Below, one piece after another: positions 21,875-28,791 of a stretch of DNA of 64,000 nt. The notes beneath the pieces are model-generated. The model made no database searches. It was not told where the DNA came from and saw nothing but the letters and a program-made list of their open reading frames with translations. This DNA comes from Methanosphaera sp. (GTDB taxonomy: Archaea; Methanobacteriota; Methanobacteria; Methanobacteriales; Methanobacteriaceae). Location of the stretch: positions 124,001 through 188,000 of the forward strand of contig NZ_JALEKL010000011.1 of NCBI RefSeq assembly GCF_022768985.1, written 5' to 3'. Within the stretch, counting starts at the first letter, position 1. Every line of letters starts with the position of its first letter. The translations under genes were made by a program, and so were the position numbers.

Positions 21875-22197
21875 ATTAATTATCCTCCAAGGGTTTTATA
21901 GATTTATATTATTAAAGTATATTTTTTTGTGTAGTAAACTGATTAAATAAATAAACTTTTCTTTTAAATCTAAAAAATGATTCCCATGTTGTTAATTTAT
22001 TTTTTTGTAGACTGAATTTTTATAATAAAATTGATAATTAATAAAACAATTTTAATATTAATATAAATTAATTTCTATCTAAAGTATAGTTTTATTATCT
22101 ATATATATTATACTTAACTATATTTTAAGGTGTTTGAATTTATATAAATACTTTACGCTTTTCATTAAAAAAAAATAAAAAATAATATTAAAAAATA
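21875..22197. other. Intergenic, thermosome upstream region
   Basis: No gene is seen. On the minus strand a TATA-like TATTTATATAAA lies at 22139-22150, about 265 nt before the thermosome start; a second AT-rich TATA-like site (taatataaatc) lies much closer, near 21903-21913. The distal part also holds the cDPG-synthetase 3' end with T-rich sequence. Confidence 0.4.
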
Positions 22198-23574
22198 TTA
22201 TTTTCTTGCATTGAAAGTGTCAACAGCATCATAAACAACGTCCATTATAGCCTTATCAAGATCATAATCATCACTTATTGGAATTGGAATATTATCACAA
22301 TAAACAACTTCAAGACCATGTTCTAATGCTTCTTTTGTTGCAACATCCACAGCTGCAGCCTTAAGTTCTGTTAACATAACATCTACTTTATCAATATTTT
22401 CCTTAATATCCTCTTTAAGTTTTGGTCTATTAGATAAGTGGGATGAAATAGCAACAACATTACATCCATAGTTTTCCTCCAAGTATTCCTTCATAAGAGG
22501 CTGTACAGATTCAGGAGCAGTTGTTGCAAAGAGAATATTACGTCCCTCTATTGATTCAACAGGTGCTGGTCTAAATATTGTTGGAATAACTTCAGCTTTA
22601 GGATTTATACTTTTAATTTCATCAATTATTACATTAAGTTTTGATTTAGAACAAATTTCACTATCACACATTGTAATTATAACAAGATCTGCAAGTTTTA
22701 CACGATATGGTCCAAAGTAGCTTGTTATTGTTTCAAGTGGCTGATTTGCTCCAACAAGTACTATTTGTTTATCTGTTTTAATTGGAGGTATTGCAGATCC
22801 ACTTCCTTCTATTGCAACAAAGTTTGTATCAAGAGCATTTGTCATTCTTGCCCCACTTTTCATATTTGTTCTAAATACACGTCCTGCCATACCACCTGCA
22901 CAACGACGACATCCAACAGTAAGTACACGACTCATAAGTGCATCTTCCCAGTGATCTGATGCTGCATGAAGTCCTTTATCTGATTGTTCCATCAAGTATT
23001 TTGGTGTTAGTTTTATTTTATTTCCTTCTACAATTTCTGGAATTTCAGGTCCTCCACGTCCCATTGCAACAATACATGGTTTAAATTTAGCATCTTCACT
23101 TATAAGACGTGCAGTATATGCTGATATTGCTGTTTTTCCTATACGTTTTCCTGTTCCTATAATTTTATAGGATGGATTTTCAAGGACATCAAACTCTTCA
23201 AGTGGATTAAATTCAAAGTCTGGTCCTTTATATGTAGCACCAAGAGATAATACTATTGTTGCTATTTTAAATCGTTTTGTATAGTTTACTACAGGTTCAT
23301 CTGATAAGTCCATTACAAGTTTTATATCGTTATCTTTAATTGTTTCTTCAATTAGTTCATATGGGATGTCTGATGTATCTTCTGCCATTAATACTTTTTT
23401 ATTAAATAATTCAGAAATTACATCAATGTTTCCATCACGAACTTTTTCTGTTCCTCCTATTAAAAGAAGTAATTCAACATCATATCCATCACTTTCTAGT
23501 TTATCAATTGCTCCTTTTGTTACAGGAAAGTAATGTTCTCCATCAATTAGGCATAAAACTTTATCTTTATCCAT
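22198..23574 (-). CDS. cpgS: Cyclic 2,3-diphosphoglycerate synthetase
   Basis: It forms cyclic 2,3-diphosphoglycerate from 2,3-diphosphoglycerate with ATP; this is a characteristic solute and phosphate store of Methanobacteriales. The N-terminus [16 protein letters not shown], a P-loop-like [18 protein letters not shown] near residue 140, [10 protein letters not shown] and [13 protein letters not shown] match the family, and the 458 residues match its usual length. It is monocistronic, divergent from the small basic gene at 23923. Its presence in a gut-type mesophile suggests a role beyond thermoprotection. Confidence 0.9.
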
Positions 23575-23922
23575 AATAATTCACATCGAATTTTTATACT
23601 TTTTTTTGAAATTTAAAAGTATTTAATTGAAGTTTTATAAAACATGATTATTATAATTTAGATATTTGAATTAATTTCTTTTTTAAGTTAAAAAATATTA
23701 AAAAAATAATAAAATATATATTAAACTTTTAAGATAAATTATATTATACTATTTCATGATAAATTACTTTAGATTTTTTTTAGTATTCACAATTTTTTTA
23801 TAAAAAATGAATCTTGAAATTATAATCTATAGTATTCAAGGATTTTTATCAAGAAGTTATAACTTTATTTTTAAATAATTGCAATTAAAATTTAAAAAGA
23901 TAATTAGATAGGAGGGAAAATA
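23575..23922. other. Divergent promoter region, cpgS / small basic gene
   Basis: No additional ORF is seen. The region is extremely AT-rich, with several TATA-like runs on both strands, and a perfect 12-bp palindrome aagttataactt at 23854-23865 about 60 nt upstream of the small gene. The palindrome may be chance in such AT-rich sequence. Confidence 0.35.
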
Positions 23923-24030
23923 ATGGCAAAAGTAAAAGGTACAAACAGAAGAACAAGACCTAGATCCGGTTACAAAAAACAAGGAAACAAAAAAGGAAGA
24001 GGAGTAAGAGAAAAAAGATATAAAAGATAG
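23923..24030 (+). CDS. Small highly basic protein (35 residues)
   Basis: A complete ORF with an excellent RBS (aggaggg, 8 nt before ATG 23923). The 35 residues hold about 17 Arg/Lys and almost no acidic or hydrophobic residues (MAKVKGTNRRTRPRSGYKK, then QGNKKGRGVREKRYKR). This composition is typical of tiny ribosomal or RNA-binding proteins; there is a loose likeness to the small basic Thx type, too weak to name it. It has its own upstream region and a T-rich 3' end (actatcctttttt). Function unknown, but very probably a real gene. Confidence 0.7.
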   Translation: MAKVKGTNRRTRPRSGYKKQGNKKGRGVREKRYKR

Positions 24031-24124
24031 TTTCTTTTACTATCCTTTTTTATAAATTAACTAACTTTTTTTATTAAACTTAACTTATTTTATTATTAAA
24101 TTACTACTTTCATACTGATTTTAT

Positions 24125-26344
24125 CTAAATTTTATCTATTGTATTAAATAAATTATCTAGATTTTCCCACTTCCAGACTTTATCTCGATTCCATCCTGTT
24201 GCCATGTTTGGTATGTATTTTCTTCCAAAGTTACCTTTAATACCCATACGCATACTATTTAGACCACATAGTATTAGTAAACTCTTAGGTCTACTGTATG
24301 CTACAAAGAATCGTCTTATTATTTCATTAAATGCTTCATCAATTGCAACATCTTTATCAACAACATTAAGATCTGAATAATCATCTCTTATATAATTTTC
24401 AATTCCATATGTATCTCCAGGCTTTTTTGGGAATATTTTAAATTCTGAATAATTATCTAATTTTCTAATATCTGATCCTACATCCACTATTACTACATCA
24501 AATTCAAGACCTTTTGCTTGGTGTATTGACATGATATTTACTGTTTCATCAAGATTTATATCTCCAAATGATTCATCATCTATCTCCATTACTCCTAGTG
24601 CTATTGGAAATAGTATGTTGTGAAATAGTTGTTTTGATGAAATATATCCTTCATATGCTATTGCATCTATTGTTTGTTCTATTGCTTCACAAATTATATC
24701 ATAATATATCTTATTTTCTGCTGTTTGTTCTATGAGGAATTGTGATTCATTTTTTATAATGTTAATTAAGTCTGGCATATACACATTTCCTTCATCAATT
24801 TCAACTACTAGTTCTTCTTCTTTTTCATTAATATAGCTTGTTGCATATTCTCTCCATTGTGTTAATGTTTTTTGTGTTCTTTTTGGAATATTACTTACTG
24901 ATGATTCAAGTTGTTTATCTTTATCAATAGATATAAGCATAAGTCCACACATTAGTGATGCTATTTCTGTTTTTTCTATATTTTGTCCACGTGGATTAAA
25001 TACCATGATGTCCTCATCAAGTTTGAGAAGATTTTCTCGTATGTAATATGGAAGTTTTTTATTGTTACCTTTATTTATCTCCTGTGGTGAATATAACAGG
25101 TATGCTATTGATGGATCATTAAACTTCACATTAAATGATGAATTTATACCCTTAAATTCTACCTCTTCATTCATTTTAAGTGAATATATGAGGTGTGAAA
25201 TATCATTTGCCAGCTCTTCCATATTATTTCTGAAAATTCCGACTACTGGATATCCATTTTCTGCTGTTTTTGTAGCAACTATGTCAGGTTTTTGTGATGT
25301 ACGACACTGTGTGTATTTTTCATCAACTGAAATATAATCATTTAGGAAATTAACAATATTTGCAGATGATCTGTAGTTTTCATGAAGATAAACTATATTA
25401 GGTTTTATTCCAACAGATGCACTTATACGTTCTACATAGTTGATAAATAACGATACATTAGCTCCACGGAATCTGTATAGTGACTGATCATCATCACCTA
25501 CAATTGTTATTGAACCATTATTATCTTTAACATAACTTGCAATTCTAAAATATATCTGCTCTTGAAGATAGTTAGTATCCTGGTATTCATCAACAAGAAG
25601 AACTTGTAAGTTATCTATAAGATCATCAAATGCATCTTCTTGTAGAAGTTCAAAGAAACGTCTTTCAAGTAGGGAATAATCAAGAATATCACGTTCTTTA
25701 AGTTTAACTTCATATTCATTAAGTATATCAAAGACTATTTTTTCACTACCAGCTTCTGCATACATCTTTGATATATCTGCCATATCATTATATACAGCAG
25801 ATCTAAAATCTATAAGTTTCTTATTTATCTCAGAAACACTAAGTTTTGCAGATCCACCATTAAGATCTCTGATAAATTGTTTTAATTGTTTATCTTCTTG
25901 ACGATCTCCATCAAGTAATGTTTGCATCATAAGAGCTGATGTTGTAAAATTATCAATAACACTTACATCATCATGTTTTGAAACATAATCTTCTGCAATA
26001 CTATCAAGTGTTCCTATTTTCATTTTCTTAAATGAATTAGTAAGTGGTTCATCTATTGCATCTGCTATTTTTTGAGCCCAATTTATTGTTCTTTTTTCAA
26101 GTTCTCCTGCTGCCTTTTTTGTAAATGTTGTCACCATCATATTTTCTGGATTTATACCATCAACAAAGTAGTATTTTAGTATTTTAAGAACAAGTGTTGT
26201 GGTCTTTCCACTTCCAGGTCCTGCAACAATAAACTGATCATCATAAACATCAGCCAGTACTGCTTTTTTCTGATCAAGATTATCTTCTATATTACGATTT
26301 AGAACTGTTTTTGCAAGTTCAACAAACTTATCTTCATTTATCAT
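24125..26344 (-). CDS. UvrD/Rep-type superfamily I DNA helicase
   Basis: A 739-residue ATP-dependent 3'-5' helicase. Motifs are in order: Walker A GPGSGKTTT near residue 43, LLVDEYQDTN (motif II), GDDDQSLYRFRGA (III), YLHENYRSS (IV), NIMSIHQAKGLEFDVVIV (V) and FVAYSRPKSLLIL (VI). The Q-motif region is LDQKKAVLA. This bacterial-style UvrD family is patchy in archaea, so the gene may have been acquired. It has no nuclease domain, so a role in repair or replication restart is more likely than AddAB-type processing. It sits between a small basic gene and hdrA without evident coupling. Confidence 0.92.
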   Translation of the reverse strand: MINEDKFVELAKTVLNRNIEDNLDQKKAVLADVYDDQFIVAGPGSGKTTTLVLKILKYYFVDGINPENMMVTTFTKKAAGELEKRTINWAQKIADAIDEPLTNSFKKMKIGTLDSIAEDYVSKHDDVSVIDNFTTSALMMQTLLDGDRQEDKQLKQFIRDLNGGSAKLSVSEINKKLIDFRSAVYNDMADISKMYAEAGSEKIVFDILNEYEVKLKERDILDYSLLERRFFELLQEDAFDDLIDNLQVLLVDEYQDTNYLQEQIYFRIASYVKDNNGSITIVGDDDQSLYRFRGANVSLFINYVERISASVGIKPNIVYLHENYRSSANIVNFLNDYISVDEKYTQCRTSQKPDIVATKTAENGYPVVGIFRNNMEELANDISHLIYSLKMNEEVEFKGINSSFNVKFNDPSIAYLLYSPQEINKGNNKKLPYYIRENLLKLDEDIMVFNPRGQNIEKTEIASLMCGLMLISIDKDKQLESSVSNIPKRTQKTLTQWREYATSYINEKEEELVVEIDEGNVYMPDLINIIKNESQFLIEQTAENKIYYDIICEAIEQTIDAIAYEGYISSKQLFHNILFPIALGVMEIDDESFGDINLDETVNIMSIHQAKGLEFDVVIVDVGSDIRKLDNYSEFKIFPKKPGDTYGIENYIRDDYSDLNVVDKDVAIDEAFNEIIRRFFVAYSRPKSLLILCGLNSMRMGIKGNFGRKYIPNMATGWNRDKVWKWENLDNLFNTIDKI

Positions 26345-26430
26345 TAAGTTAATTCCCCATTAAATTTTATATTTCCTTGATGAATTTCTAATTAGAATGT
26401 ATATAAAAGATCATATTTAAAATAGTATTT

Positions 26431-26459
26431 TTAAAAAAAGAAAGAAAATAGGGGGTTAA
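26431..26459 (-). terminator. C-rich/oligo-T 3' end of hdrA
   Basis: On the minus strand, ttaacccccta is followed by T4, then T7, starting 2 nt after the hdrA stop. It marks the end of the hdrCBA operon. Confidence 0.5.
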
Positions 26460-26460
26460 T

Positions 26461-28791
26461 TTAGTTTTCAAGTTGATTAATCTGGCGTAGTTGTTCATCA
26501 AATTCAAAGAATTGTTTTGAAAGACCTCTAAAGTATGGAATAAATACACCATGTATTATTAATCTATCTGGATTTATTCCTTCATCTTCAAGTTTTCTTT
26601 TCATTGTAATAACATTTTGACGTATCTCTGTATGTTTTGGAGAATCAGGGTATTCACCAAGGAATACTCCATCTGCACCATGAGTTAATGCATACTTGAT
26701 GTGTCTGTATTTTACACGATTTATAAATGGAATATTTATTATACGTACAGAGTCAGGACAACTTACACGGTTTATTCCCATATTGTTTGCTGATACATTT
26801 CCTATATCATCAAGGAATGCAATGATAATTTGCTCACCTGGTTTTTTATCTTTTAGTGCTCCACGAATACTTGCCTCAAGTCTTTCATCACTTTGTCCTT
26901 GTATACTTATTGCTTCACGTTCACATGCCATTATACATACACCACATCCTGTACATGATATTGGATCAACTGATATTGAATGTTTACTTTTTGTAATTGC
27001 CTGATATACACATTCCTGTGTACATTTACCACAGAGTATACATTTTTTAACATTTACCTGTGCAATGTATGGTTCTACTTCAAGACCACCATTTACAAGT
27101 TCTGATATCTTTGTTGCAGCAGCATTTGCCTGAATTATACTATCTGTTATATCTTTTGGTCCTTGTGCTGTTCCACATACAAAGATTCCCTCTATATCTG
27201 TTGTTACAGGTTTCATTTTTGGATGTTTTTCTTTAATAAAATCATCCTCTGTTAGTGCTACATTAAGTTTACTTGCCACATCTATTGTTCCCTGTGATGA
27301 TTCTAGTGCTGCTGATAAAACTATGAGGTCTGTTGGAATTTCCTCACGTGTTGATGTGAGAGTATCTTCTATTCTTACAAGCATATGATCTCCTTCACGT
27401 GCAATTTCACCAGGTCTTCCACGTATTAGTTGTACACCATTATCTTGTGAATATTTATAGTATTTTTCATATACTCCTACTGTTCTCATATCAGTATAAC
27501 ATATTATAACTTCAGTATCAGGATAATGTGATCTTATAAGATTTGCATGTTTTAGAGCTATCATACAACATACCTTGGAGCAGTATTTATGTCCTCCTGG
27601 CATCTGGTCACGTGATCCTACACATTGTATCATTACAACACGTCTTGGTACTTTACCTGTTGATGGTACAAGTAGTTTTCCCTCTGTTGGCCCATTTACT
27701 CCCATTATACGTGCTAGTTCCATCTGATTTATTACATCATCATATAGTTCATGTCCATATTCTGGACGTTGTGATGTATCGTATCTTTGATGTCCTGTTG
27801 CTATTACTATTGATCCTACAGTTTCTGATATTACATCATTTATTGCATCTAGATTAATTGCATCTGTTGGACATACCTTTAGACATGCACCACACTTGAT
27901 ACAATTTTCATCATCAAGTGTATATGTACTTGGTACTGCCTGTGGAAATGGTTTATATATTGCTTTTCTTGTTATTAATTCTTCATTCCAGTCATCTGGT
28001 ACTATTGTTGGACATACTGCTGTACAACGTCCACAGCTTGTACACTTATATGGATCTACATATACTGGTTTTTTACTAAGCATTACATCAAAGTTTCCAG
28101 ATCTTCTCTCTGATTTTTCAAGTGTTGTATTTGTTAGAAGACGTATATTTTCATGTTGTATCATTTCACTTATTACAGGATTAAGTAGACATGCTGCACA
28201 GTCTTCTGTTAGTTTTTCTGGTGAAAATACCTTTCCTACTTTTACCATTGATCCTCCAACTGCTGCTTTTTGTTCAATTAGTATTACTTCCATTCCCTGA
28301 TTTGCTAATGATACAGCTGATGTTAATCCTGCAATTCCTGCTCCTATTACAAGTACTTTATTTTTTACTTGTGTTGGTATTTTTGCTAGTGGTTCATCAT
28401 ATTTTACTGTTTCAACAGCAGAGTTTATGAGTGATAATGCCTTATTTGTTGCTTTTTTTGGATCATCTGTTACCCAGGAGCATTGTTCTCGTATGTTTGG
28501 CATTTCAAATAGGTATGGATTTAATGGTTTTATATAGTTTTGGAACGTATTTCCATGAGTTATTCGTGAACATGCAGCTATTACTACACGATCCAGGTGA
28601 TTTCTTAGAATTTGATCTTTTATTATTTGATTTCCTTCATGTGAACATAGATTTTGATGATGTTTTACAGAGATTATATCTTTATTTTCTAGTAATTTTT
28701 TTTCAATTGCATCAAGATCTATTACATCTGAGATGTTTCCTCCACAATGACATAGAAATACTCCTATTCTTGGATTTTCATCATCACTCAT
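26461..28791 (-). CDS. hdrA: Heterodisulfide reductase subunit A with degenerate MvhD-like C-terminus
   Basis: HdrA is the flavin-bifurcating core of the cytosolic CoM-S-S-CoB reductase complex. In this 776-residue protein: N-terminal CHCGGN (14-19); FAD-binding VLVIGAGIAGL (146-156); ferredoxin clusters at 250-261 and 298-308; the Cys region 390-409 (YCSKVCC); two further clusters at 584-594 and 613-623. Residues about 655-770 form an extra domain resembling MvhD (RIINIPF..NRV, HGADGVFLGEYP, EGINPDRLIIHG), but all its iron-sulfur cysteines are replaced. The ATG at 28791 is chosen over GTG 28809, which is part of the GAGGAGG RBS. It overlaps hdrB by 8 nt. The divergent N-terminal motifs suggest a second HdrA type. 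Confidence 0.92.
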   Translation of the reverse strand: MSDDENPRIGVFLCHCGGNISDVIDLDAIEKKLLENKDIISVKHHQNLCSHEGNQIIKDQILRNHLDRVVIAACSRITHGNTFQNYIKPLNPYLFEMPNIREQCSWVTDDPKKATNKALSLINSAVETVKYDEPLAKIPTQVKNKVLVIGAGIAGLTSAVSLANQGMEVILIEQKAAVGGSMVKVGKVFSPEKLTEDCAACLLNPVISEMIQHENIRLLTNTTLEKSERRSGNFDVMLSKKPVYVDPYKCTSCGRCTAVCPTIVPDDWNEELITRKAIYKPFPQAVPSTYTLDDENCIKCGACLKVCPTDAINLDAINDVISETVGSIVIATGHQRYDTSQRPEYGHELYDDVINQMELARIMGVNGPTEGKLLVPSTGKVPRRVVMIQCVGSRDQMPGGHKYCSKVCCMIALKHANLIRSHYPDTEVIICYTDMRTVGVYEKYYKYSQDNGVQLIRGRPGEIAREGDHMLVRIEDTLTSTREEIPTDLIVLSAALESSQGTIDVASKLNVALTEDDFIKEKHPKMKPVTTDIEGIFVCGTAQGPKDITDSIIQANAAATKISELVNGGLEVEPYIAQVNVKKCILCGKCTQECVYQAITKSKHSISVDPISCTGCGVCIMACEREAISIQGQSDERLEASIRGALKDKKPGEQIIIAFLDDIGNVSANNMGINRVSCPDSVRIINIPFINRVKYRHIKYALTHGADGVFLGEYPDSPKHTEIRQNVITMKRKLEDEGINPDRLIIHGVFIPYFRGLSKQFFEFDEQLRQINQLEN

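Follow-up and report, generated by a model that had tools for sequence, protein, structure and literature searches.

A short basic peptide conserved across a methanogen family is a candidate ribosomal RNA-binding protein

Is a strongly basic reading frame of 35 codons in Methanosphaera a gene and, if so, what might its product bind? The frame lies in the window, by which we mean the whole 64-kb stretch analysed, part of contig C11 of a 1.6-Mb genome. A first-pass annotation had described a small protein, nearly half Arg or Lys, with a strong ribosome-binding site, an upstream region of its own and a T-rich end. We analysed the locus and recorded the following features.

22198..23574, minus strand: divergent neighbour of 458 aa, cyclic 2,3-diphosphoglycerate synthetase-like as judged from its sequence; among the loci drawn, found in Methanosphaera only
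23711..23765, plus strand: probable promoter block, AT-rich (AAAATATATATTA...TTATATTATACTATTTCATGATAA), placed by alignment with Methanosphaera relatives
23910..23916, plus strand: Shine-Dalgarno (SD) sequence AGGAGGG, with the ATG 6 nt downstream
23923..24030, plus strand: basic-peptide ORF MAKVKGTNRRTRPRSGYKKQGNKKGRGVREKRYKR, 35 codons, stop TAG; homologues in 123 of the family's 138 genomes
24017..24050, plus strand: probable terminator, placed by folding, a hairpin across the last codons and the stop followed by a U-run
24125..26344, minus strand: convergent neighbour of 739 aa, a UvrD-like helicase as judged from its sequence; among the loci drawn, found in Methanosphaera only

Each trait in the first-pass description was borne out, as were the length and translation. 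The peptide contains 8 Lys and 8 Arg (16 of 35 residues, 46%) and a single acidic residue, and its gene occupies an intergenic region of its own, flanked by a large divergent ORF on one side and a large convergent ORF on the other. The SD pairs with the 16S tail at −11.3 kcal/mol; of 99 longer ORFs in this genome, 4 do as well or better, and of 2000 20-mers from the window, none does. The hairpin and U-run at the stop reached −7.1 kcal/mol, and 3 of 200 shuffles were equally stable; a strict GC-rich terminator scan returned none, and we regard the element as a probable terminator. The promoter scan covered bacterial-type promoters only. The AT-rich block at 23711-23765 can be aligned with a similar block ahead of the gene in other Methanosphaera, with a poor fit in one of them (L002). 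It is a probable promoter of the peptide gene and could serve the divergent gene as well.

The pattern of substitutions demonstrates selection on the frame. Seven separate Methanosphaera pairs showed 7, 4 and 32 differences at the first, second and third codon position (32 of 43 at the third; P = 4e-8), and ten pairs from other genera showed 6, 12 and 54 (P = 6e-13), sites being treated as independent in both tests. Between the window and L002, 10 differences were synonymous and 1 was non-synonymous, and pN/pS came to 0.27 for Methanosphaera (16 sequences) and to 0.18 for other genera (50 sequences of 34 residues). The peptide frame is under strong purifying selection and is not a product of chance. 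The first-pass annotation had held that a frame lacking conservation in related species, with synonymous changes not favoured, would speak against the gene; we found the frame conserved across genera and the changes mostly at third positions, an outcome that strongly favours a real protein.

Homologues are 30–35 residues long and share the start, SD and stop, the start being TTG in one locus (L029). An SD stands upstream of nearly every homologue, and among 80 named loci it was weaker than −5 kcal/mol only in L127. Nine positions (M1, K3, G6, T7, R12, K19, G21, G25 and R26) were invariant in 31 of 31 aligned sequences, and further positions were near-invariant, with Gly, Thr and Asn among the conserved ones. 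Such conservation is position-specific and extends beyond basic charge. The C-terminus differs between genera: some have an RYRG-like end, some a QTWKK-like end, and in others the peptide stops near residue 30. The peptide has no hydrophobic core, and AlphaFold predicted no confident fold (pLDDT 67, pTM 0.21), as would be expected for a peptide that becomes ordered only on its partner.

We analysed the distribution of the gene across archaeal genomes. A single-sequence search matched 34 of 60 genomes, the window's own included; one of these matches (G052, E 0.2) is a chance match. Profile A1 matched 123 of the 138 genomes of the window's family at E ≤ 2e-8 and, in a manual tally of its hits, all 41 family genomes that are at least 97% complete. 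The 15 genomes that gave no match are 62–96% complete, and among them G030 (96%) and G075 (95%) are possible true losses. In the rest of the phylum, none of 13 genomes matched the profile at E < 0.1, and the weak matches there were short, some of them with stops. Two further archaeal phyla yielded no match in 223 genomes (200 drawn from a larger group plus 23), in searches run without a positive control of their own. A named species collection gave 89 relatives, of which 80 were retained as named loci; their titles read Methanosphaera, Methanobrevibacter, Candidatus Methanovirga, Methanorudis, Methanoflexus, other Methanobacteriaceae or 'archaeon', and none of the 80 carries the genus name Methanobacterium. 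All three genomes of genus g17 (G035, G160 and G161) hold two copies; in isolate nzgw21 these are L087 and L127, the second of which has the weak SD. The peptide gene is a core gene of the window's family, which comprises gut and environmental methanogens, and is single-copy except in g17. Because it is absent from the sister families (0 of 13 genomes), it is not an ancient part of the ribosome.

Its surroundings give no functional hint. Most neighbours stay the same within Methanosphaera; in Methanobrevibacter loci such as L076, L086 and L097 the gene follows an argJ-like gene, so named from its sequence, by about 90 bp; elsewhere the neighbours are unrelated and mostly metabolic, again with names read from sequence. 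Across the 41 loci drawn, we found no synteny conserved between genera and recognised no translation-gene neighbourhood. The peptide gene is a stand-alone gene.

We compared its codon use and divergence with those of ribosomal proteins. A codon score was built from 22–23 ribosomal-operon ORFs against other ORFs, and the peptide was compared with background draws. Its codons were ribosomal-protein-like in two Methanosphaera genomes, that of the window (P = 0.0016) and G014 (P = 0.0001); in G093 the bias was not significant (P = 0.14). Against G014, 32 of 35 residues were identical (91%), compared with a median of 92% for ribosomal proteins (n = 23) and 70% for the background (n = 36). Against G093, identity was 20 of 35 (57%); there the ribosomal proteins had a median of 66% (n = 23) and the background one of 52%, the latter from only six genes. 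In its pace of change the peptide resembles ribosomal proteins. Core status and divergence rate are those expected of the ribosomal class; for high expression, judged from codons, the signal is present in the two Methanosphaera genomes and not significant in G093. The codon use in Methanosphaera suggests that the gene is probably highly expressed.

The earlier remark that the protein fits none that can be named held in every library searched, Pfam, NCBIfam, PHROGs, Rfam and PDB all returning nothing usable. The sole Pfam match was PF15012 (E 2.9, one of 17 members). Among 31 members searched against NCBIfam, one matched TIGR00030 (S21p) at E 0.046, which we took as a composition effect. PHROGs gave no usable match, no PDB chain matched the peptide by sequence, and Rfam had no match within 22000-26500. 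In the literature searched, we recognised no paper on the peptide and found none that contains the string AKVKGTN.

Four kinds of short ribosomal protein deserve comparison. bTHX (Thx, S31; PF17070), which occurs in the small subunits of Thermus, chloroplasts and plant mitochondria and binds the small-subunit head, is likewise lineage-restricted, 25–35 residues long, rich in Lys and Arg and Gly-containing; unlike the peptide, it is bacterial or organellar. Its N-terminus reads MGKGDRRTRR in PDB chains, against MAKVKGTNRRTRP in the peptide. The bTHX profile had no match at the gene in six family genomes, and the pairwise likeness (KGxxRRTR) does not go beyond composition, 95% of 500 shuffles scoring as high. 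eL41 (PF05162) is a very short basic ribosomal protein of archaea and eukaryotes, a likeness to the peptide, but is not known to have such a fixed Gly/Thr/Asn pattern. Its profile matched none of 11 phylum genomes at E 10, the window genome included; since it did not reach its cut-off in any of the 14 control genomes either, PF05162 may be insensitive. eS30 (PF04758), also short and basic, has a K-V-x-G near its start as the peptide does; no genome of nine exceeded the cut-off, none matched at the gene, and two sub-threshold matches lay elsewhere in the genomes. Compared with some 45 ORFs from the ribosomal operons of G000 and G093, the peptide showed no similarity above that of shuffles, the best shuffle fractions, before correction for the number tested, being 0.07 and 0.08 for ORFs that we take to be uL24-like and eL19-like. 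Small, lineage-restricted ribosomal additions are also suggested in archaea by aL45–aL47, terms that occur in PMC10516650, a paper on a crenarchaeal ribosome; the peptide has no sequence match in PDB. We think that the peptide may work like bTHX, eL41 or eS30, and the profiles of these families do not pick it out.

The explanation we favour, and hold to be somewhat probable from the sequence evidence, is that this core peptide of 30–35 residues is a lineage-specific protein that binds rRNA, either as a ribosomal protein or in association with the ribosome. A more specific form of it, which we put forward tentatively, is that the peptide may be an undescribed structural ribosomal protein, gained in the ancestor of the family, retained in every near-complete genome and overlooked by annotation and structural work because of its 30–35-residue length. 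Lacking a hydrophobic core, the peptide would not fold alone; its individually conserved Gly, Thr, Asn and Lys positions suggest one specific partner; and its core status, divergence rate and codon use, which resemble those of ribosomal proteins, point to the ribosome. We infer an RNA partner and, more specifically, rRNA. An extended basic chain would wrap into a pocket formed by folded RNA, with turns of the backbone set by the fixed Gly, Thr and Asn positions and with Lys and Arg side chains pairing with phosphates, and would become ordered in an rRNA pocket much as bTHX and eL41 do in other lineages. Supporting this explanation are the presence of the gene in all 41 near-complete genomes, pN/pS, the third-position bias, the invariant residues, the strong SD and the stand-alone gene. 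Counting against it are the lack of a recognised translation-gene neighbourhood in 41 loci, the non-significant codon bias in G093, the absence from sister families, the lack of any likeness beyond composition to bTHX or to the ribosomal proteins compared, and the duplicate gene in each of the three g17 genomes, which is unusual for a ribosomal protein.

Composition alone suits DNA binding equally well, and the first-pass annotation had offered a ribosomal or RNA-binding role and a nucleoid role side by side. The ribosomal or RNA-binding part stands as the likeliest explanation, with indirect support from composition, position-specific invariance, core status, and codon use and divergence like those of ribosomal proteins; the nucleoid part has become less likely. 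A protamine-like peptide or histone partner coating DNA through its basic residues would be small and 46% Lys/Arg, with expression signals that suggest abundance, as seen here. However, nine invariant and many near-invariant positions, Gly, Thr and Asn among them, better fit a specific binding surface, and the divergence rate and codon use are like those of ribosomal proteins; we consider such a role quite unlikely. Composition and conservation speak just as well for a component or cofactor of another ribonucleoprotein, such as an rRNA assembly factor, an RNA chaperone, a tRNA, SRP or RNase P accessory, or an initiation or hibernation peptide, and a stand-alone gene would suit a factor no less than a structural protein. 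We rate this as unlikely: the ribosomal-like codon use suggests high abundance, and no specific pointer leads to any such particle.

The remaining explanations concern the locus more than the partner. That translation of the frame merely controls a downstream gene, as a leader peptide or regulatory upstream ORF, would fit a short ORF with a strong SD, but the amino acids themselves are conserved, a T-rich hairpin lies directly at the stop, and the downstream gene is convergent in the window and varies between genera; neighbours that change from genus to genus speak against a leader, which we find very improbable. We give equally little credence to a toxin, antimicrobial or antitoxin-type peptide: small and cationic it is, yet it is encoded by a core gene whose sequence pattern follows genus, no partner gene is common to the genera, and the plasmid and phage collections held no match at E 0.01. 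A small RNA gene whose frame is open by chance might account for a conserved stretch between large genes, but is scarcely credible given the third-position bias, the pN/pS values, the conserved SD, start and stop, and the empty Rfam search around the gene.

If the peptide is ribosomal, the composition of the core ribosome was still changing at the origin of the window's methanogen family, and gut archaea (Methanosphaera, Methanobrevibacter) offer a specific testable target. Whatever its function, this is a family-wide core gene below gene-calling size that is missing from the curated libraries searched.

In Methanobrevibacter, the flank between argJ and the peptide gene showed a further peculiarity. 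On one viral contig, L157, the peptide gene lies at the contig end, and a divergent archaeal phage integrase (L157:1703-3153; Pfam PF16795, E 8e-7) lies about 130 bp upstream of it. The junction falls at GAAAACAAATATTTTTTTGTTATAG, upstream of the gene, and chromosomal sequence is kept from there onward; two contigs of one MAG start inside this junction sequence, and a scan for it found L157 as the only viral contig. Assemblies break at the peptide gene or shortly before it (L077:1-100, L079:1-100), and six genomes (G105, G106, G124, G129, G132 and G140) carry it at a contig edge, breaks that are consistent with integration polymorphism or strain mixture. On the basis of this viral contig and the places where assemblies break, the promoter-side flank is probably a provirus attachment site. 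In L117 (4880-5090), about 50 bp before the junction sequence are missing, among them the stop codon of argJ and the AT-rich promoter region, so that argJ runs on into the peptide gene in a different frame; the gap may reflect either imprecise excision or an assembly artefact.
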